From: Stutzerimonas xanthomarina DSM 18231
GTDB lineage: Bacteria; Pseudomonadota; Gammaproteobacteria; Pseudomonadales; Pseudomonadaceae
DNA length: 64,000 nucleotides
Direction of reading: 5' to 3'
NCBI RefSeq assembly: GCF_900129835.1
Contig: NZ_FQXA01000003.1
Coordinates: 558,001 to 622,000, forward strand
Positions 45,883 through 61,585 of this stretch are shown piece after piece. How positions within the stretch are numbered: the first letter of the stretch is position 1; every line of letters starts with the position of its first letter. The notes under the pieces were generated by a model. It was not told the DNA's origin, did no database searches, and saw nothing but the letters and a program-made list of their open reading frames with translations. The position numbers and the translations under genes are program-made.

Positions 45883-47367
45883 TCAGCCCGCGTGGTACTC
45901 GGCGTCAGCCACTTCGAAGCGCTGCTGAATGGAAGCCGCCGGCTCCTTGCCCATGATGCTCACCACATAGATGGCGATGCTGGCAAGGATGAAGCCGGGA
46001 ATGATTTCGTACAGCCCGAGACCGATGAATTCCTTCCACACCACCACGGTGATCGCGCCGACCAGCATGCCGGCGAGCGCGCCGTTGCGAGTCATGCGTT
46101 TCCACACCAGGGAGATCAGCACCACCGGGCCAAAGGCAGCGCCGAAGCCGGCCCAGGCGTAGGACACGAGACCCAACACTTTACTGTCCGGATTCGAGGC
46201 GATGCCGATGGCAATCAAGGCAATCAGCAGCACCATGCCGCGGCCAACCCAGACCAGTTCAGTCTGCGATGCGCCCTTGCGCAGGAAGGCTTTGTAGAAG
46301 TCCTGGGTCAGTGCGCTGGAACTAACCAACAGCTGCGCGCTGAGCGTACTCATGACGGCAGCCAGTACGCCGGAAAGGATGATGCCGGCGACCCAGGGGT
46401 TGAACATCAGCTTGACCAGTTCCATGAACACGCGCTCGCCATTCTCGGTGACCGGGCCGGCCAGTGCAGGGTTATCCGCGAAGTAGGCGATACCGAGGAA
46501 GCCCACAACCACGGCGCCGGCGAGCGTCAGGATCATCCAGGCCATGCCGATGCGACGGGCGTTGGGGATGGTTTTCACCGAATCGGCGGCCATGAAGCGC
46601 ACCAGGATGTGCGGTTGCCCGAAATAGCCAAGACCCCAGCCGAGCAGCGAGATGATCGCGATGAAGGACAAGCCTTTGAACATGTCGAAATTCGAAGGGT
46701 CCTGCGCGGCGATGGTGTCCATGGCGGTGCCAAGGTCGCCCAGGGCGAGGATAACGAACACCGGCGTGATCAACAGCGCGAAGATCATCAGCGTGGCCTG
46801 AACGGTATCGGTCCAGCTCACCGCAAGGAAACCGCCGATAAACACGTAGAGGATGGTCGCCGCCGCGCCTATCCACAGCGCCGTACCGTAATCCATGCCG
46901 AAGGTCGACTCGAACAATCGCGCGCCCGCCACTACGCCGGAGGCGCAGTAAATAGTGAAGAACACCAGAATCACCAACGCCGAGAAGATCCGCAGCAGGC
47001 GGCTGGTGTCCTCGAAACGATGGGAGAAATAGTCCGGAAGGGTCAGCGCATTGTGGTTGTGCTCGGTGTGCACACGCAGCCGCCCGGCGACGAAAATCCA
47101 GTTAAGCCAGGCGCCGGCGATGAGGCCGATGGCGATCCAGCTTTCAGACAGGCCGGCAACGAAAATTGCGCCGGGCAGGCCCATCAGCAGCCAGCCGCTC
47201 ATGCCCGATGCGCCTGCCGAAAGGGCCGTGACGAAACTGCCTAGGCTGCGTCCGCCGAGGATGTAGTCATCGAAGTTCTTGGTGGCGCGGTAGGCGGTGA
47301 AGCCGATAAGAATCATCGCCGCGATGTAGATCACGAAGGTGATCAGAGTGGGGGTGCTCACATTCAT
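45883..47367 (-). CDS. putP: PutP-type sodium/proline symporter, copy 1, lacking Asp55
   Basis: 494 residues, 13 membrane helices of the SSS family. It is nearly identical along its whole length to the copy at 48490. In E. coli PutP, Asp55 and Ser57 in SAGASDMSGWLLMGLP form part of the Na+ site, and Asp55 is essential. Here the segment reads SAGASGMSGWLLMGLP: Gly55, from a GGC codon. The rest of the transport core (YCASGVVAGARLFES, SWTDTVQATLMIFALL, YFGQPHILVRFMAA, SAQLLVSSSALTQDFY) is intact. So the protein may be inactive, uncoupled or of altered ion use. It follows the haemoglobin pseudogene. Confidence 0.9.
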   Translation of the reverse strand: MNVSTPTLITFVIYIAAMILIGFTAYRATKNFDDYILGGRSLGSFVTALSAGASGMSGWLLMGLPGAIFVAGLSESWIAIGLIAGAWLNWIFVAGRLRVHTEHNHNALTLPDYFSHRFEDTSRLLRIFSALVILVFFTIYCASGVVAGARLFESTFGMDYGTALWIGAAATILYVFIGGFLAVSWTDTVQATLMIFALLITPVFVILALGDLGTAMDTIAAQDPSNFDMFKGLSFIAIISLLGWGLGYFGQPHILVRFMAADSVKTIPNARRIGMAWMILTLAGAVVVGFLGIAYFADNPALAGPVTENGERVFMELVKLMFNPWVAGIILSGVLAAVMSTLSAQLLVSSSALTQDFYKAFLRKGASQTELVWVGRGMVLLIALIAIGIASNPDSKVLGLVSYAWAGFGAAFGPVVLISLVWKRMTRNGALAGMLVGAITVVVWKEFIGLGLYEIIPGFILASIAIYVVSIMGKEPAASIQQRFEVADAEYHAG

Positions 47368-47620
47368 TGGTGTTGTTTTCCTTGTGCTGCGGGGACGTAG
47401 CCCCCGCCTCCACTGACGAAACGCGAGCGCTTGTGGCGCTGCGTTGGCAACGGACGGTCGGGTTTAGAAGGAAAGCATAGCGTCTCGAAGCACTCTTCGC
47501 TCATGACCGGACAGTTTTGTCCGGGAAAGGTGCGAACGGGACGACCTATGGATGTTCCGCTGAGTGGCCAGGGATGAACCGGTCGTGCGGCGGTTCGCTT
47601 CGATCTCACTGCTGTCGCAG

Positions 47621-47933
47621 TCAGCGGTCGATGATTTGCCTACGTATGTGCGCCAGGCGTGCCAGCAAGCGGTTCTGCGCCGGGATCGAGATGCCCTCAG
47701 CGGTCATCGCCACCTGCAGATCTTCAGCCAGCGCGTTGAAATCGCTGCGCGTCAACTCCCAAACCCTTATGGCTCTCTCCATACTGTCGCCGCAGTAGAC
47801 GCAGGGGCCACCCGCCTCGATGCAGAACTGCTCGATCAGTTTGGCGTGCAGCCGCTGGATATCGATGTCCTGAAAATGCTCGGCGGTGCGACACCCAGCA
47901 ATAAGCAGAACAGCACTGGCTGACTCCCGCCAT
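47621..47933 (-). pseudogene. Group I truncated haemoglobin, decayed
   Basis: Minus-strand reading gives LLIAGCRTAEHFQDIDIQRL, then KLIEQFCIEAGGPCVYCGDSMERA, then IRVWELTRSDFNALAEDLQV and IPAQNRLLARLAHIRRQIID to a stop at 47621. This is the group I truncated haemoglobin pattern with a lipobox (LLIAGC). Three defects show: about 35-45 residues expected between lipobox and the HF helix region are missing; the frame changes briefly at MERA, so the expected HKGLGV with the proximal His (readable in another frame) is replaced by IRVWEL; and the signal has lost frame with its ATG at 47933. Confidence 0.72.
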
Positions 47934-48151
47934 CTCGACGATTACCGTCGAACCACCGCCTTCCTTGGTAAGCTGCTGGCCTGATCACGCCGGCCTATTG
48001 CCATCAGTTGATCAGCATAATTTTCGCTTCTGCCTACGCCGTTATCGGATTCAATTACCGCTACGCACAAACGGATTGTCCCGGCTACGGTCTCACTCTG
48101 AGTAGCTGCACCTTTCAGTGCGGCTCCATCGCACCCCCGAGGAGACCCGCC

Positions 48152-48376
48152 ATGACAGTCAACATCGATACTGCAAACGGCACCTGTTCAACCACACTCG
48201 AAAACGCCACCCATACCTGCGCCATCAAGGACGTGCGAGTTTCGACAGATCCAGCAGCTCGGATGTCCATGGCTCATATCAGCGGCCATAGCGTTCACGT
48301 GACCGAAGACATGGCCGAGCATTTGATCGCAGCAGGCGCGAAGGACGATCGCAAGAACCTCGTTGTCGACGACTAA
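48152..48376 (+). CDS. DUF3203-like small protein
   Basis: 74 residues from the ATG at 48152 (GAGGAG 9 nt upstream). It reads MTVNIDTANGTCSTTLENAT, then VRVSTDPAARMSMAHISGHSVHVTEDMAEHLIAAGAKDDRKN, resembling the small pseudomonad family DUF3203. Soluble, no obvious active site. It lies alone on the plus strand between two minus-strand genes, with a two-way terminator after it. Confidence 0.6.
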   Translation: MTVNIDTANGTCSTTLENATHTCAIKDVRVSTDPAARMSMAHISGHSVHVTEDMAEHLIAAGAKDDRKNLVVDD

Positions 48377-48433
48377 CCACGCCACATAAGCCATCGCCGA
48401 CCAACGGTTAACGGTTGGTCGCGGATACAAAAG

Positions 48434-48470
48434 AAAACCCCGCTGCCGGCATGCCGGCAGCGGGGTTTTT
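48434..48470. terminator. Two-way terminator between DUF3203 gene and putP copy 2
   Basis: A perfect stem of 17 bp (AAAACCCCGCTGCCGGC with its complement) closed by a minimal loop, with A tract before and T tract after. Serves both convergent genes. Confidence 0.95.
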
Positions 48471-48489
48471 GGTTACGTCAGCTACTCAA

Positions 48490-49974
48490 TCAGCGGCCTT
48501 GATATTCGCTCTCGGCGTCCTCGAAGCGCTTGATCATGCTCGGTGAGGCACCGGCTCCGACCTTGCTGAAGATCACGATGGCAAGGCTGGCGAGGATGAA
48601 GCCCGGAATGATCTCGTAAAGGCCCATACCGATGAATTCCTTCCATACCACCACAGTGACGGCACCCACGACCATGCCGGCCAGCGCGCCATTACGGGTC
48701 ATGTGCTTCCACAGCAGTGAGATCAATACCACCGGCCCAAAGGCAGCACCAAAGCCCGCCCAGGCGTAGGACACCAGGCCCAGCACCTTGCTGTCCGGGT
48801 TGGAAGCGATGCCCAAGGCGATGAAGGCGATCAGCAGAACCATCGCACGACCCACCCAGACCAGTTCGGTCTGCGAGGCGTTCTTGCGCAGCATGGCTTT
48901 GTAGAAGTCCTGCGTCAGGGCGCTGGAGCTCACCAGCAGCTGTGCGCTGAGCGTACTCATCACGGCAGCCAGAACACCGGACAGGATGATGCCGGCAACC
49001 CATGGGTTGAACAGGATCTTCACCAGCTCCATGAATACCCGCTCACCGTTCTCGGAAACCGGCCCCGCGAGCTCAGGATGGCCTGCGAAGTAGGCGATGC
49101 CGAAGAAGCCCACCGCGACGGCGCCGGCTAGCGTCAGAATCATCCAGGCCATGCCGATGCGGCGGGCGTTGGGGATGGTCTTCACCGAATCGGCGGCCAT
49201 GAAGCGCACCAGGATGTGCGGCTGACCGAAGTAGCCCAAGCCCCAGGCCAGCAAGGAGACGATGGCGACGAAGGACAGGCCGTTGAACATGTCGAAGGCA
49301 GCCGGGTTCTGCGTAGCAATGGTATCCATCGCAGCGCCCATGTCGCCCAGCGCAAGGATCACGAACACCGGGGTGATAAGCAGCGCGAAGATCATCAGCG
49401 TGGCTTGCACGGTGTCCGTCCAGCTGACCGCGAGGAAACCGCCGATGAACACGTAGAGGATGGTTGCAGCAGCACCGATCCATAGCGCCAGATCGTAGGG
49501 AATGCCGAAGCTGCTCTCGAACAGACGCGCACCAGCGACCACACCGGAGGCGCAGTAGATGGTGAAGAACACCAATACGACCAAAGCCGAGAAGATCCGC
49601 AACGTGCGGCTTTCGTCTTCGAAGCGGTGGGAGAAATAGTCAGGCAGGGTTAGTGCATTCTTGTTGCGCTCGGTGTGCACACGCAGACGCCCGGCGACGA
49701 ACAGCCAGTTCAGCCAGGCACCGGCAATCAGGCCGATGGCGATCCAGCTTTCTGACAGGCCCGCGACGAAGATGGCCCCTGGCAGGCCCATCAGCAACCA
49801 GCCGCTCATATCCGAAGCGCCTGCCGACAGTGCAGTGACGAAACTTCCCAGGCTACGTCCCCCGAGGATGTAGTCATCGAAGTTCTTGGTGGCACGGTAG
49901 GCGATAAAGCCGATCAACAGCATGGCGCCGATGTAGATCACGAACGTGATCAAAGTGGGAGTACTGATGCTCAT
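48490..49974 (-). CDS. putP: Sodium/proline symporter PutP, copy 2
   Basis: 494 residues; Na+-driven proline importer of the inner membrane, 13 helices. The Na+-site segment SAGASDMSGWLLMGLP is intact, with Asp55 and Ser57. Other core segments match E. coli PutP (YCASGVVAGARLFES, TDTVQATLMIFALL, GQPHILVRFMAA). It lies 206 bp after putA on the same strand, with an intercistronic hairpin between them, as in P. aeruginosa putA-putP. The leader carries an AACAACAA motif before the ribosome site. This copy is presumably the working proline transporter. Confidence 0.95.
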   Translation of the reverse strand: MSISTPTLITFVIYIGAMLLIGFIAYRATKNFDDYILGGRSLGSFVTALSAGASDMSGWLLMGLPGAIFVAGLSESWIAIGLIAGAWLNWLFVAGRLRVHTERNKNALTLPDYFSHRFEDESRTLRIFSALVVLVFFTIYCASGVVAGARLFESSFGIPYDLALWIGAAATILYVFIGGFLAVSWTDTVQATLMIFALLITPVFVILALGDMGAAMDTIATQNPAAFDMFNGLSFVAIVSLLAWGLGYFGQPHILVRFMAADSVKTIPNARRIGMAWMILTLAGAVAVGFFGIAYFAGHPELAGPVSENGERVFMELVKILFNPWVAGIILSGVLAAVMSTLSAQLLVSSSALTQDFYKAMLRKNASQTELVWVGRAMVLLIAFIALGIASNPDSKVLGLVSYAWAGFGAAFGPVVLISLLWKHMTRNGALAGMVVGAVTVVVWKEFIGMGLYEIIPGFILASLAIVIFSKVGAGASPSMIKRFEDAESEYQGR

Positions 49975-49990
49975 TTTGTTCCCTCGTTAG

Positions 49991-49998
49991 TTGTTGTT
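49991..49998 (-). promoter_or_regulatory. CA motif (Hfq/Crc type) in the putP copy 2 leader
   Basis: AACAACAA on the minus strand fits AANAANAA and lies about 20 nt before the putP start, near GAGGG. It suggests catabolite control of proline uptake at translation; not proven here. Confidence 0.4.
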
Positions 49999-50131
49999 GA
50001 TGGGCGCGAGGGTATTCCCGATCCCACCTGGCAGAGGGCGATGGCGGTTCGCGCCATCACCGGGACGGGCTCACCTGAGCCCATCAGAGGCGGAAGAGCG
50101 ATCCGCCAACTGTTCTGGTTGTTCTATTGAA

Positions 50132-50158
50132 CCGGCGGTCTCTGAACCGAGCCGCCGG
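50132..50158 (-). terminator. Hairpin between putA and putP copy 2
   Basis: 7-bp GC stem (CCGGCGG/CCGCCGG) with a 13-nt loop 22 bp after the putA stop. No T tract on the minus strand, so it probably slows or processes rather than ends transcription. Confidence 0.45.
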
Positions 50159-50180
50159 CCGTTTCCTGTCGAGTCGACGA

Positions 50181-53100
50181 TCAGTCGTCGCCCAGCGACA
50201 GTAAGGACGCGTTTCCGCCGACCGCGGTCGTGTTGGTGGAGGTGGTGCGTTCGTTGACGAAGCGCAGCAGGTAGCTCGGGCCACCGGCTTTCGGGCCAGT
50301 ACCCGACAGGCCACAGCCACCGAACGGCTGCACGCCAACCACCGCACCGACCTGGTTACGGTTGACGTAGAGGTTGCCGACCCGCGCCAGCGCTTCGATG
50401 CGGGCTGCCGTTTCCTCGTTGCGGCTGTGGATACCGAGGGTCAGGCCGTAGCCGGTGGCGTTGATGTCAGCGACGATCTTCTCCAGATCTGCCGCATCGA
50501 AGCGCACTACGTGCAATACAGGGCCGAATTGCTCTTTTTTCAGCTCGTGAATCCCGCCGATTTCGAACGCCACTGGCGCGACGAAGTGACCGTTGAGGCT
50601 GCCGGGCAGCTTGGCTTCGGCGATCAGCTTGCCTTCGGCCTTGAGCTGCTGAATATGCGCCAGCAGGCCGTCACGCGCTTCGGCATCGATCACCGGGCCC
50701 AGGTCGTTCTCGCGCAAATGAGTCGGGCCGACCTTCAGCTGGTCCATCGCGCCCTTGATCAGCTCGATTACGCGATCGGCGATGTCACGCTGTACGTAGA
50801 GCACACGCAGCGCCGAGCAGCGCTGACCGGCGCTGGTGAAGGCGGAACCAACCGCATCCTTGACCACCTGCTCAGGCAGCGCGGTGGAGTCGACGATCAT
50901 CGCGTTCTGGCCACCGGTTTCGGCGATCAGGGTGGCGATAGCGCCCTCCTTCTCGGCCAGCTGCCGGTTGATGATGCGCGCCGTGTCGGTGGAGCCGGTG
51001 AAGCACACGCCGACCACACGCGGATCGCGGCAGAACACGCCGCCGAGCGTGGCGCCGTCGCCCGGCAGGAAGGCAATCGCCTCCTTCGGTAGACCGGCTT
51101 CGAACATCAGTTCCAGCGCGCGCGCAGCGATCAGGCTGGTCTGCTCGGCCGGCTTGGCCAGCACGGTGTTACCGGCGACCAAGGCTGCAGTGATCTGACC
51201 GAGGTAGATCGCCAGCGGGAAGTTCCAGGGGCTGATGCAGACGAACACGCCGCGCCCTTCATGGAACAGCTCGTTACGCTCGCCGGTCGGACCTTTGAGT
51301 TCTTCGCGGCCAAGTTTCAGGCGAGCTTGCAGCGCGTAGTAACGGCAGAAATCGACCGCCTCGCGGACTTCGTCAATGCCGTCCTGCAGGGTTTTGCCGG
51401 CTTCCAGCGTGCACATGGCCATCAGCTCGGCGCGGTTGGCCTCCAGCAGATCACCAAGACGCTCTAGGATCTGTGCGCGCTGTTCGATGGGCGTGGCGTT
51501 CCAACGCGGCCAGAAGGCGGACAGGCCGTCGATGGCCTGCTTGGCCTGCTCGGCGGTAGCGAACTGCGCAGTGCCCACTTCCTGACTGAGCTGATAGGGG
51601 CAATGCACCTTGTGCGCTGTGCCGGTGAGCTTCTGCCCGCCGATCACTGGCGTGGCTTGCCACTGGCGATCGAGGAAGGTCTGGTAGGCGCTGGACAGGT
51701 CGTTCCACTGAGTCTGGATGTTCATGTTGATGCCTTGCGAGTTGGTCCGATTGCCGTACAGCGCCGGCGGAAGCGGGATGCGATGGTTGCCAAGGGTTTT
51801 GAACTGGCGCAGCTGGGTGACCGGGTGATCAATCAGGGTCTCGACCGGCACGCGCGGGTCGACCAGCTGGTGAACGAACGATGAGTTGGCGCCGTTTTCA
51901 AGCAGACGACGCACCAGATACGGCAGCAGGTCCTTGTGGGCACCGACCGGCGCGTAGATGCGCACATTCTTGCGGTATTTCTCGATCACGGTGTCGTACA
52001 GCGCATCGCCCATGCCGTGCAGACGCTGGAATTCGAACTCGCGCGGCGTCTTCAACTCGCCGACCATCGACAGGATGCAGCTGACGGTGTGCGCGTTGTG
52101 GCTGGCGAATTGCGGGTAGATCACACCGCGGGTGTGCTCGGACAGCAGGTAACGGGCGCAAGCCAGGTAGGAGGTATCGGTACCTTCCTTGCGGGTGTAG
52201 ACCGGGTAACCGTCCAGGCCCTGAACCTGGCACTGCTTGATCTCGCTGTCCCAGTAGGCGCCCTTCACCAGACGCAGCGGGATACGCGCGTTCAGCTCTT
52301 TACCCAACAGGGTCAGCCAGACCAGTACCGGCAGGCAGCGCTTGGAATACGCCTGGATCACCAGACCAAACTCGCCCCAGCCGGCGATGGCCGGGTCGCG
52401 CATCAATTTTTCGTAGAGTTCCAGCGAGAGCTCGAGGCGATCGGCCTCCTCCGCGTCGATGGTGATACCGACATCCAGGCGGCGCGCCAGTATCGCCAGC
52501 TCGCGAACGCTTTCGAACAGTTCGGTGAGCACGCGCTCACGTTGAGCCACTTCATAACGCGGGTGCAGTGCAGACAGCTTAATCGACACCGACGGGCGCG
52601 GGCCAAGGCCTACCTGAGGCTCCGCGCCGACGGTTTCTACAGCCTGCCGGTAGTCAGCCATGTACTTGCGCGCATCTTCGGTGGTCAGCGCCGCTTCGCC
52701 GAGCATGTCGAAAGAATAGGTGTAGCCCTTCTCGCGCTCGGGACGGCCGTTCTTCAAGGCTTCGGAGATGGTCCGGCCAAGCACGAACTGCTTGCCCATC
52801 AGCTTCATCGCCTGATTCATCGCGGCGCGGATGACCGGCTCGCCGGAGCGCTTGACCAGGCGGCCAATGACATTTTTCGGGCGACCGTCGGAATTGTCCG
52901 GGTCGACCACCTTGCCCGTCATCACCAGGCCCCAGGCCGCGAAGTTGACCAGCACGTTGTCGCTCTGGCCGAGGTGGCGTTCCCACTCGGCGGCATTGAG
53001 CTTGTCGCGGATCAGCGCGTCGGCCGTGGCCGAATCCGGCACCCGCAGCAGCGCTTCGGCCAGGCACATCAGCATCAGGCCTTCATGCGTATCCAGGCTG

Positions 53101-53342
53101 TACTGGCGCAGCAGCGCGTCGAGGGTGTCGACGGCGTTATCTCGGCCGCGCACGGCTTCGATCAGGCCGCGTGCTTCGCGGCGAATGGCTTCGATGCCCG
53201 CCTCGCCCGGATCAGCCAGTTGCAACAGCTCGTTCAGGTAGGCCGCCTCGTCAACGCTGTAATTGGCGCTGATGGCGGGGAAGAATTCGGCGGCTTTCAG
53301 GTTGGCGAAATCGCCCTGCAAGACTTGACCGGCTTTGAACAT
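50181..53342 (-). CDS. putA: Bifunctional proline dehydrogenase / P5C dehydrogenase
   Basis: Oxidises proline to glutamate in two steps with FAD then NAD+; membrane-associated, 1053 residues. Proline dehydrogenase barrel about 150-490 (VSIKLSALHPRYE, LRLVKGAYWDSEIK, YPQFASHNAHT, YAPVGAHKDLLPYLVRRLLENGANSSFV). Aldehyde dehydrogenase domain about 560-1030 with ISPWNFPLAIY, TLIAETGGQNAMIV (Glu) and SAGQRCSALRVLYVQ (catalytic Cys). The RHH DNA-binding domain that makes E. coli PutA trifunctional (1320 residues) is absent, so PruR is the likely regulator, as in P. aeruginosa. The gene follows pruR and precedes putP. Confidence 0.97.
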   Translation of the reverse strand: MFKAGQVLQGDFANLKAAEFFPAISANYSVDEAAYLNELLQLADPGEAGIEAIRREARGLIEAVRGRDNAVDTLDALLRQYSLDTHEGLMLMCLAEALLRVPDSATADALIRDKLNAAEWERHLGQSDNVLVNFAAWGLVMTGKVVDPDNSDGRPKNVIGRLVKRSGEPVIRAAMNQAMKLMGKQFVLGRTISEALKNGRPEREKGYTYSFDMLGEAALTTEDARKYMADYRQAVETVGAEPQVGLGPRPSVSIKLSALHPRYEVAQRERVLTELFESVRELAILARRLDVGITIDAEEADRLELSLELYEKLMRDPAIAGWGEFGLVIQAYSKRCLPVLVWLTLLGKELNARIPLRLVKGAYWDSEIKQCQVQGLDGYPVYTRKEGTDTSYLACARYLLSEHTRGVIYPQFASHNAHTVSCILSMVGELKTPREFEFQRLHGMGDALYDTVIEKYRKNVRIYAPVGAHKDLLPYLVRRLLENGANSSFVHQLVDPRVPVETLIDHPVTQLRQFKTLGNHRIPLPPALYGNRTNSQGINMNIQTQWNDLSSAYQTFLDRQWQATPVIGGQKLTGTAHKVHCPYQLSQEVGTAQFATAEQAKQAIDGLSAFWPRWNATPIEQRAQILERLGDLLEANRAELMAMCTLEAGKTLQDGIDEVREAVDFCRYYALQARLKLGREELKGPTGERNELFHEGRGVFVCISPWNFPLAIYLGQITAALVAGNTVLAKPAEQTSLIAARALELMFEAGLPKEAIAFLPGDGATLGGVFCRDPRVVGVCFTGSTDTARIINRQLAEKEGAIATLIAETGGQNAMIVDSTALPEQVVKDAVGSAFTSAGQRCSALRVLYVQRDIADRVIELIKGAMDQLKVGPTHLRENDLGPVIDAEARDGLLAHIQQLKAEGKLIAEAKLPGSLNGHFVAPVAFEIGGIHELKKEQFGPVLHVVRFDAADLEKIVADINATGYGLTLGIHSRNEETAARIEALARVGNLYVNRNQVGAVVGVQPFGGCGLSGTGPKAGGPSYLLRFVNERTTSTNTTAVGGNASLLSLGDD

Positions 53343-58270: not shown

Positions 58271-59229
58271 ATCTCGACCTGACTCCCCTCGCCTGGCGCC
58301 TGGCCGGCACCCCACTGGCGGCTTGGGCCAACGGCTTGCAAGCGCAACTCGATGCCAAACTCGCGATTGGCCACGGCGACCTGCCGCGCTGGCGGCGTGC
58401 CGTCGAAGCGCTGCCGGATATCCAGCCTAGCGGGGTGGAGCTGCGTGATGTCTTCCGATTGGAAGCCGACTGCGACGAAGCCGTACGCGCCGTCACGCAC
58501 GATGCCCTGTTCGGCCTGTCGCCCTGGCGCAAGGGGCCCTTCGATGTGTTCGGCGTGCATGTCGATACCGAATGGCGCTCGGACTGGAAGTGGGACCGCG
58601 TTGCGCCGCATTTGAACCTGGCCGGCAAGCGCATCCTCGATGTCGGCTGCGGCAACGGTTATTACATGTGGCGTATGCTCGGTGCCGGCGCCGACTCGGT
58701 TGTCGGTATCGACCCGAACTGGCTGTTCTTCTGCCAGTTCCACGCTATGAAGCGCTACCTTGCCGAACACCCTGTCTGGCATCTGCCGATGGCCTTGGAG
58801 GAACTGCCGGCGAAGCTCGAAGGCTTCGACACGGTGTTTTCCATGGGCGTGCTTTACCATCGGCGCTCTCCCATCGATCACCTGTTGGACCTGAAGGACT
58901 GCCTGCTCAAGGGTGGCGAGTTGGTCTTGGAAACGCTGGTAGTTGAAGGAAATGAGCACACCGCTCTGGTTCCCGAAGACCGCTACGCGCAGATGCGCAA
59001 CGTCTGGTTCCTGCCCTCGGTAGCCGCGCTGGAATGCTGGCTGCGCCGCGCCGGTTTCGTCGATGTGCGATGCGTGGATGTCAGCATCACCAGCGTCGAG
59101 GAGCAGCGCAGTACCGACTGGATGCGCTATCAGTCGCTCCCCGAATTCCTCGATCCCAAGGATCACAGCCGGACCATCGAAGGACTCCCGGCGCCCATGC
59201 GCGCCGTCCTTGTTGCGCGCAAACCCTAG
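58267..59229 (+). CDS. cmoB: tRNA U34 carboxymethyltransferase CmoB
   Basis: Transfers the carboxymethyl group from carboxy-SAM to 5-hydroxyuridine at tRNA position 34; 320 residues. The ATG at 58267 overlaps the cmoA stop. N-terminal helical region, then the methyltransferase domain from about 105 with [47 protein letters not shown] near 198, and [31 protein letters not shown] near 225. Standard length, coupled with cmoA. Confidence 0.95.
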
Positions 59230-59507
59230 CGTCCGCGCTCGCAACGCTGCTCCTCCACCGCCTGGCGCAGCGACATCTGCAGTTTTTCAATGAGCCGCGG
59301 GCGGCTCAGGTCACGCATGCGCAGCTGTCTATCACTGAGCCTTAGCAGGCGCTGGTACAGGCGCCGTTTGCGCCAAGCGACGAACCAGTCAATTACCGCC
59401 TGCTGAAGTTCAACGGGCCACATCGCTGGCATATAGAAGTCCGGCATCGGCGGACGGGGCCGATCATCGGTCCTATTGCACTGTTGCTGCTGTTCAGAAT
59501 GACGCAT
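59226..59507 (-). CDS. DUF1127 small protein
   Basis: 93 residues from the ATG at 59507 (AGGAGG 5 nt upstream). The C-terminal half is the DUF1127 motif: [36 protein letters not shown], an Arg-rich RNA-binding-like helix. The N-terminal part is polar, with QQQQ. Its stop overlaps the cmoB stop from the opposite strand by 4 bp. DUF1127 proteins are linked to small-RNA and phosphate or stress control in other bacteria, but this one is long for the family (usually about 45-80 residues). Divergent from the LysR gene. Confidence 0.8.
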
Positions 59508-59593
59508 CGCATCCTCCTGCTTTCGCGAGCGTGCATGGGCGCACCCGATGCCTGCCGACCGACTTGTGGCCGGCAGAAACAGATTGAGTGCGC

Positions 59594-59620
59594 TTGACGA
59601 TTCAGACAAACGACTACAAT
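59594..59620 (+). promoter_or_regulatory. Promoter-like sequence before LysR gene 59656
   Basis: TTGACG (59594-59599) and TACAAT (59615-59620), 15 bp apart, which is shorter than the ideal 17. It lies 36 bp before the LysR start in the 148-bp divergent gap with the DUF1127 gene. Confidence 0.4.
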
Positions 59621-59655
59621 AGAACCGTCGGTTCAGAAAAATTGAAGACCAATCT

Positions 59656-60558
59656 ATGCCCGGTATGCCCGAAGACCTCCCCCAGTCCGCCATGCCCCTG
59701 CTTGAGATCGATGTGTTGCGCACCTTCGTGTCCATCGCCGAAAGCGGTAGTTTCACGCGTGCGGCAGGGCAGATATTCCGCACCACCTCGGCCGTCAGCA
59801 TGCAAATCAAACGGCTCGAGACCATGCTCGGTTGCACGCTGTTCATCCGTGAAGCTCGACGCATCGCACTCACCGATGAAGGCGAAAAACTACTCGGTTA
59901 CGCGCGGCGCCTGCTCAAGCTCAATGAAGAAACGGTCAATGCATTCATCTTGCCGCGGCTGAACGGGCGGGTTCGTTTCGGTACCCCGGCGGACATCGGC
60001 ACGCACATCCTGCCTGGACTGCTGTCCCTGTTCGCCCGCACCCACCCGGGGATCGAGGTGAATGTCTCGGTGGGCCGCAGTGTCGACATGATCCAGCGTA
60101 TCGACGCCGGCGAGCTGGACGTCGCGCTCATCAGCGTCGGCAACCTCGGCCAGGACGACTCGCGCGGCGAGGCCATCCACAGCGAACCCCTGGTCTGGGC
60201 CGGCCGAGCCGGCGGCGTCGCGGTCGAGCGCAACCCGTTGCCGCTCGCCCTGTCGAGCCCCGAATGCGCGTGGCGGCGTCAGGCGATGGACGCACTGGAC
60301 CGTGCCGGCCGCCCCTATCGCATCGCCTATTCCAGCGAGCAATGCGCTGGGCAGGAAGCGGCGATGATCGCCGACCTAGCAGTGGCGCCGTATCCGTTAA
60401 GCCTGATCAGGCCACCGCTGAGGCGGTTGGAAGAAGGCGACAGCCTGCCGACCCTCGGTGAATATCAGATCAAATTGCTTTGCGCTGCTGGACGCAGCGA
60501 GGCGGTGGACGTGCTATCCCGGCATGTCATCGCAGCGTTTGCCGCCTACCACAAATAA
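59656..60558 (+). CDS. LysR-type regulator divergent from a DUF1127 gene
   Basis: 300 residues. Helix-turn-helix about residues 18-60 (LLEIDVLRTFVSIAESGSFTRAAGQIFRTTSAVSMQIKRLETMLG), then the substrate domain. The DUF1127 gene is 148 bp away on the other strand, so it is the likely target in addition to self-control. Such LysR/DUF1127 pairs are common in pseudomonads. Inducer not known. Confidence 0.85.
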   Translation: MPGMPEDLPQSAMPLLEIDVLRTFVSIAESGSFTRAAGQIFRTTSAVSMQIKRLETMLGCTLFIREARRIALTDEGEKLLGYARRLLKLNEETVNAFILPRLNGRVRFGTPADIGTHILPGLLSLFARTHPGIEVNVSVGRSVDMIQRIDAGELDVALISVGNLGQDDSRGEAIHSEPLVWAGRAGGVAVERNPLPLALSSPECAWRRQAMDALDRAGRPYRIAYSSEQCAGQEAAMIADLAVAPYPLSLIRPPLRRLEEGDSLPTLGEYQIKLLCAAGRSEAVDVLSRHVIAAFAAYHK

Positions 60559-60597
60559 CCGGCCCAACCGCCACGGCAATACAAAAGCGGAGACACC

Positions 60598-60804
60598 ATG
60601 GCGAAATGGCTAATTGCCGCAGGCTTGCTGCTGCTTCTGCTCGGTTTGATTCTGCATTACGCGCCGGGCCTGCTGAGCTGGTTCGGCAAGCTGCCCGGCG
60701 ACATCCGCATCGACTCGGAACGCAGCCGGACATTCATTCCCTTCACGTCGATGATCATCCTAAGCGTGCTGCTGACGATTCTGCTGAATCTATTCAGACG
60801 ATAA
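60598..60804 (+). CDS. DUF2905 small membrane protein
   Basis: 68 residues with two membrane helices (about 4-26 and 46-66) joined by FGKLPGDIRIDSERSRTFIPFTS. The conserved GKLPGDIR segment is typical of DUF2905. No function is known. It ends 35 bp from the convergent pdxJ stop. Confidence 0.8.
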   Translation: MAKWLIAAGLLLLLLGLILHYAPGLLSWFGKLPGDIRIDSERSRTFIPFTSMIILSVLLTILLNLFRR

Positions 60805-60838
60805 AGCAAGCCGCCGTACAGCGGATCGCCCTGAGGCC

Positions 60839-61585
60839 TCAGCCACGCGCCGAAGCGCTGAGGATGAGGTGCTTCATTTCTTTGACGGCCTGTTTGAAAC
60901 CGACGAACAGCGCATGGGCGACGATCGCATGACCGATGTTCAGCTCATTGACGCCTCGGATCGCGGCTATCGCTTCAGCATTGTGGTAGTGCAAACCGTG
61001 GCCCGCATTGACGATCAAACCATGGCTCAAGCCGGACTCCACACCGTCGCGAATGCGCGCAAGCTCACAGGCCCGCTCAGCCACGCCGTGCGCATCGGCA
61101 TAACGTCCGGTGTGCAGCTCAATCGCCGGCGCACCTACCCGAGCGGCGGCTTCGATCTGACGCGGATCGGCATCAATGAACAGCGACACCTCCGCACCGC
61201 AGGCGGCCAGGCGGTTGACCGCGTCGCGTATCCGAGCCTCCTGTCCCGCAACATCCAGACCGCCTTCGGTGGTGAGTTCCTGACGGGTTTCAGGCACCAG
61301 GCAAACGTGTTCAGGGCGCAGCTGCTCTGCAAACAGCAACATCGCCTCAGTCACGCCCATCTCAAAGTTCATTCGCGTCTGCAGCGCATCCTTCATCATC
61401 AGCACGTCACGCTCCTGGATGTGCCGACGATCCTCGCGCAGGTGTACCGTAATGCCGTCGGCCCCGGCCTCTTCGGCATCCAGGGCAGCCTTGACGGGGT
61501 CCGGGTAGCGAGTACCGCGCGCCTGGCGCAGAGTGGCGACATGATCAACGTTGACGCCGAGCAGGATTCGATTAGCTTCAGTCAC
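60839..61585 (-). CDS. pdxJ: Pyridoxine 5'-phosphate synthase
   Basis: Closes the pyridoxine ring from 1-deoxy-D-xylulose 5-phosphate and 3-amino-2-oxopropyl phosphate; TIM barrel, 248 residues. Marks: [34 protein letters not shown] near residue 45 (catalytic His), [11 protein letters not shown] near 75, [18 protein letters not shown] near 97, [10 protein letters not shown] near 160, [11 protein letters not shown] near 196, and [16 protein letters not shown] near 217. It overlaps recO by 8 bp: the end of the rnc-era-recO-pdxJ operon. Confidence 0.96.

Follow-up and report, generated by a model that had tools for sequence, protein, structure and literature searches.

A recent, probably inactivating Asp55-to-Gly change in one of two adjacent putP genes of Stutzerimonas xanthomarina DSM 18231

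Two genes for sodium/proline symporters (PutP) stand side by side at this locus, and one of them has a glycine where the family has an aspartate, at position 55. The question is what this single residue means: whether the gene is being lost, whether its product has taken on another mode of transport, or whether the change is harmless or not real. The window analyzed here is a stretch of 64,000 nucleotides of the genome of Stutzerimonas xanthomarina DSM 18231 (contig NZ_FQXA01000003.1, positions 558,001 to 622,000), and all positions are counted from its first letter. On its minus strand the gene order is putA, putP copy 2, putP copy 1. The putA gene (50181 to 53342) encodes a bifunctional proline dehydrogenase/glutamate semialdehyde dehydrogenase of 1053 amino acids (NF008869, 1614.1 bits against a cutoff of 747), copy 2 (48490 to 49974) adjoins it, and copy 1 lies at 45883 to 47367; the plus-strand reading of that last interval is not putP. 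A sequence-only reading had reported Gly55 in copy 1 and Asp55 in copy 2, and both minus-strand frames bear this out, with GGC at 47203 to 47205 in the context SAGASGMSGW for copy 1 and GAT at 49810 to 49812 in the context SAGASDMSGW for copy 2. Its report that the copies are equal in length, and that the frame of copy 1 is clean over 494 codons, was likewise confirmed; both proteins have 494 residues and align without gaps. Its description of the copies as near-identical was too strong. They agree at 430 of 494 residue positions (87%) and at 1210 of 1485 bases (81.5%), and at the sequence level they are clearly diverged paralogues.

Both copies pass the cutoff of 515.5 bits of TIGR02121, the curated PutP equivalog model (733.9 bits for copy 1 and 725.3 bits for copy 2), and both fall below that of a second PutP model, NF011948 (855.8 and 832.1 bits, respectively, against 955). 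Matches to the sequences of solved structures numbered 13, of which the best was sodium/glucose cotransporter 1 (7wmv) and none was named PutP. Within the SSS family (TC 2.A.21, PF00474), copy 1 has kept the other listed transport residues, namely L64, Y140, D187, Y248, E311, F314, S340, T341, and W405, each named as important in PMC7918813 or PMC3866251. It departs from the family at position 55, where an acidic residue, in nearly all cases Asp, is expected. By descent and score copy 1 is thus a PutP, and its function as a PutP is in doubt.

The part played by this aspartate is described for the PutP proteins of E. coli and H. pylori. In E. coli PutP, according to PMC7918813, D55 of cTMD1 and Y248 are crucial, correspond in alignment to N64 and Y263 of vSGLT, and form a proposed inner gate; the ligands of the Na2 ion are main-chain oxygens and two Ser/Thr residues of cTMD8. 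The sequence-only reading had called Asp55 a Na+-site residue, which goes further than these descriptions. In H. pylori PutP, PMC3866251 describes the equivalent Asp58 as modeled in the proline site, near the bound proline, and an Asp58Cys variant as having uptake below detection and a membrane amount comparable to that of the wild type. Copy 1 resembles that variant in having lost the same side chain from the same helix. It differs in that the replacement there was an engineered Cys, not Gly, in another species. Because a PutP studied in the laboratory no longer takes up proline once this side chain is gone, copy 1 is most likely inactive. A limited search of the literature on PutP and proline found no natural D55G variant.

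Codon 55 is almost uniform across the genus. A search of 56 genomes yielded putP regions from 55, with G019 omitted (73% complete and fragmented), and a set of 98 whole or partial copies. Four copies unreadable at codon 55 were dropped from the count, and among the 94 readable copies, from 54 genomes, the residue is Asp in 93 and Gly in one, copy 1 itself. The Asp codon is GAC in 90 of the 93 and GAT in the remaining three, which makes the proposed origin of GGC from GAC by a single base change likely. An apparent putP gene lacking its middle in G044 was discarded, as the gap, which includes codon 55, is a run of N in the record. After 11 copies that were partial, over-long, or interrupted by a stop were set aside, the 87 that remained, all close to full length, were placed in a protein tree with one Xenorhabdus outgroup. 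Copy 1 falls in a clade of 21 rows whose support (93/56) is not strong, nested there as the sister of the G027 and G032 sequences (99/74). The sequence-only reading had raised the prospect that Gly55 is fixed among orthologues of this copy, and had itself counted Asp55 in close relatives against its proposal; Asp55 is what all 20 other members of the clade carry. D55G is private to the source genome among the sampled species, and it is known from one genome of its own species. Gene conversion from copy 2 was rejected as the source of the change, because the residue in copy 2 is Asp and Gly occurs in none of the relatives' copies that were read.

The genus alignment of the 87 copies also shows how such a change compares with others. 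Among columns filled in at least 83 rows, 327 are invariant and 26 have a single deviating sequence; D55G is one of these 26, and most of the other exchanges are mild. At columns conserved also in Xenorhabdus, Halomonas, and Chromohalobacter, replacements of comparable severity are rare (D34G, found in two Halomonas-genus rows, is one), with the proviso that the Gly55 rows of those three genera were chosen for carrying Gly55 and are no independent evidence on the frequency of radical change.

The remainder of copy 1 has evolved under strong constraint, as the dN/dS comparison put forward in the sequence-only reading makes plain: against its counterpart in G032, dS is 0.419, dN is 0.0068, and dN/dS is 0.016, with six residue differences. 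Measured against its four nearest relatives, copy 1 has 41 private synonymous codon changes and three private replacements (D55G, M212L, and T287V), position 212 being Ile in one of the four, and copy 2, set against its own four nearest relatives, has no private replacement. In the absence of constraint, 41 synonymous changes would be accompanied by about 122 replacements. The two replacements besides D55G have a 95% upper Poisson bound of 6.3, and no more than about 5% of the branch could therefore have passed under relaxed selection. This is a rough estimate, in which neither the sequence of the changes nor repeated hits at one site are taken into account. The tip length of copy 1 (0.013) is close to the median of all tips (0.012). 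There is no sign of a mutator lineage, in that MutS and MutL both have near full-length matches without stops. D55G is either very recent or not felt by selection, and a clean frame cannot separate the two. The clean frame had been offered as an argument against decay and for changed coupling; because the change is young, it is uninformative on that point. Copy 1 has neither a broken frame nor a raised replacement rate of the kind that marks a pseudogene, and a very young inactivation is invisible to both measures.

D55G could also be tolerated, and copy 1 could still be a normal Na+/proline symporter. Copy 1 is consistent with this in showing no other sign of relaxation. Against inactivation, too, none of its deeply conserved columns besides 55 has changed and its upstream region is conserved, so that decay is not visible beyond codon 55. 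The uniformity of the position argues the other way. To the 93 Asp residues among the 94 genus copies can be added 50 motif matches in 46 genomes of an order sample (145 genomes), with 48 Asp, one Glu, and the Gly of copy 1, and 41 matches in 39 genomes of a phylum sample (249 genomes), with 40 Asp and again the Gly of copy 1; the two samples overlap in genomes. In addition, a 1997 paper on E. coli PutP, cited in both PMC7918813 and PMC3866251, reportedly, to judge by its title, calls Asp55 essential for Na+-coupled uptake. We regard a tolerated change as very unlikely.

The occurrence of Gly55 beyond the genus was examined by an exact-pattern scan of a collection of 84,980 species, from which the source genome of the window is possibly excluded. 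The pattern was AGA[ST]-[Gly/Ala/Val]-M[ST]GW followed by a YTN codon; third-position wobble at the WSN codons admits a few other residues (such as Cys or Arg), and the remaining replacements at position 55 lie outside it. Twelve stretches were returned. Six of them (L098, L100, L103, L105, L106, and L108) are chance matches in unrelated frames, whose alignment with copy 1 extends no further than the motif itself or some tens of residues. The other six are PutP homologues, all with Gly and none with Ala or Val, from Xenorhabdus stockiae (69.5% identical to copy 1), a Metabacillus species (58% over the first 62 aligned residues), an alphaproteobacterial metagenome-assembled genome (MAG) (54%), Halomonas eurihalina (51.5%), Chromohalobacter beijerinckii (50%), and a MAG of the K189A clade (36%). 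In four of the six the frame is open over about 500 codons and identity to copy 1 is at least 50%. Deeply conserved columns were read in an alignment of 158 rows, from which three short pieces (the second pieces of L140 and L110, and L169) were dropped.

Wherever relatives of a carrier were compared, Gly55 proved to be private. Asp55 is found in 29 of 29 other loci of Xenorhabdus, with Gly55 in X. stockiae alone, in 29 of 29 other loci of Halomonas (30 loci from 61 genomes searched, a sample of the genus), and in 9 of 9 other loci of Chromohalobacter. Among the scan matches, privacy was read in these three genera; three congeners of the alphaproteobacterial MAG contained no orthologue of its Gly55 gene. 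The X. stockiae case is the closest in form to that of the window, with two adjacent putP genes (L110 and L116) on one strand, 198 bases apart, one with Asp55 and one with Gly55. Their proteins are 97% identical, and the genes differ at 66 synonymous and 14 replacement codons, including E75K and I76G; the Gly55 copy also carries L61F, in a column where no other row varies. That duplication is young and private to the species, the tandem pair being present in X. stockiae alone among 30 genomes, whereas the two copies of the window are old and common to many species of the genus. The Metabacillus Gly55 gene has a frameshift right after the motif, with an Asp55 copy elsewhere in the genome. Between the Chromohalobacter gene and that of its nearest relative there are 10 synonymous and four replacement codon differences, the latter including D55G and, at an otherwise invariant proline, P252L (copy 1 numbering). 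The H. eurihalina gene is without further change at deeply conserved columns, and that genome has a second homologue with Glu55. Glu55 was seen in two PutP-like sequences, this one (L114, genome G204) and G184:C25:224703-224731.

In three of the six homologues, then, Gly55 goes together with other damage or with a tandem duplication of recent date, and the pattern of Gly55, in single species and often with other damage, is, as far as these sequences suggest, that of recurrent loss. Against it, copy 1 and the H. eurihalina gene have no second hit. Taking the window and the six scan matches together, Gly55 has been met in seven unrelated lineages; three of these genomes also have an Asp55 copy, and in three no second PutP was found. 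The latter are C. beijerinckii, the alphaproteobacterial MAG, and the K189A MAG, judged from the SSF matches read; a backup copy is therefore not the rule, and loss in these genomes would cost them PutP.

The distribution of Gly55 bears also on whether the codon is genuine. Errors in sequencing or assembly, or a change that arose in culture in the sequenced isolate only, would fit a residue that is private to one draft assembly of 17 contigs and, more generally, one that is limited to a single species in each genus checked. An assembly mix-up of copies 1 and 2 is unlikely, as they differ at 18.5% of their bases, and Gly is absent from every relative's copy that was read. The assembly has an estimated completeness of 100 and contamination of 0.25, and the same change has been recorded in six PutP genes of unrelated species. 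An error or culture mutation seems to us unlikely, if somewhat less so than the other alternatives considered here.

A Gly55 protein with an altered function, whether uncoupled or facilitated movement of proline, coupling to another ion, or transport of another substrate, was the second branch of the sequence-only reading. Several observations would suit it: the clean frame and otherwise complete set of transport residues in copy 1, the finding of Gly to the exclusion of Ala and Val among the scan homologues, the four homologues with long open frames, and the three genomes that an inactive protein would leave without PutP. From the SSS family, PMC7918813 reports CbrA to be stimulated by a proton and not a sodium gradient, and S. 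aureus PutP not to be stimulated by NaCl. However, related species would be expected to have a useful new function in common, and in none of the four genera read (that of the window, Xenorhabdus, Halomonas, and Chromohalobacter) do orthologues of related species share Gly55. Three carriers are broken or have further changes at invariant columns, and the H. pylori Asp58Cys variant had no measurable uptake (PMC3866251). The restriction to Gly needs no selection, given that Asp to Gly takes one transition and Ala or Val a transversion, and the count is small. An altered function of copy 1 is accordingly judged most improbable, and nothing was found in support of a new ion or a facilitator mode. 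A more specific proposal would have PutP arrive at Gly55 repeatedly as a working form, through which proline moves downhill or independently of Na+; we give it hardly any credence. If Gly55 proteins did transport, they would offer a natural one-residue test of Na+-substrate coupling in the SSS family; as it stands, the recurrence in unrelated species is one mildly interesting extra.

The explanation that we consider probable, with some confidence, is that D55G of copy 1 is a young, probably inactivating missense change in a gene that has a paralogue as backup beside putA. Copy 1 would have been an ordinary Na+/proline symporter gene, held under strong purifying selection until very recently, in which one A-to-G transition replaced Asp55 with Gly. 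Na+-coupled proline uptake by copy 1 would most likely have been lost with that step, and copy 2, with its Asp55 and its position next to putA, would supply proline uptake in its place. Between the two fates envisaged in the sequence-only reading, drift to a pseudogene and changed coupling, it is the loss-of-function branch that fits. Such compensation would be in keeping with the gene content of the genus: 13 of the 56 genomes list a single full-length putP match above 80% identity, though drafts may miss a copy, and one working putP seems to be enough for some species. Read in this way, copy 1 would show, with a good date, how one gene of a duplicated pair loses a residue that matters, and would be a caution that a clean frame is no proof of a working transporter.

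A second case of damage to one of two putP genes in the genus is found in G042, whose copy 2 (L079) has one in-frame TAG stop, a further pointer to one working putP being enough.

The region upstream of copy 1 looks intact. Its leader (47368 to 47520, minus strand) was aligned in 11 upstream regions, its own included, and most of the 10 relatives retain blocks of it as far as the start codon; the promoter there is putative. Farther upstream, at 47890 to 47916, comparison with relatives reveals a junction that is without some 4 kb found between the putP genes of G023 and G032. The possibility that copy 1 lost its promoter with this segment is unsupported, since the leader conserved in most of the aligned relatives is still beside the gene. 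In G023 the segment of about 4 kb holds cupredoxin-like, GGDEF/EAL-like, barrel-like, and truncated-globin-like frames, as read from their translations, and a remnant of the last of these persists upstream of copy 1 at about 47620 to 47890. Adjoining copy 2 is a frame of 122 amino acids (48008 to 48376) that is conserved at the same place in G023 and had no NCBIfam match at an E value of 0.001.

Identity to G023 varies along the window. Over putA and putP copy 2 (48001 to 53000) it is 93 to 97%, and in the adjacent kilobases on both sides it is 83 to 89%, a pattern as after homologous recombination between species. The high-identity tract stops near the junction at 47.9 kb, and similar values occur elsewhere in the window. 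At 59001 to 61000, identity to both G023 and G032 drops to about 76% over 2 kb, with 84 to 91% on the flanks, which perhaps reflects a fast-evolving or exchanged gene.
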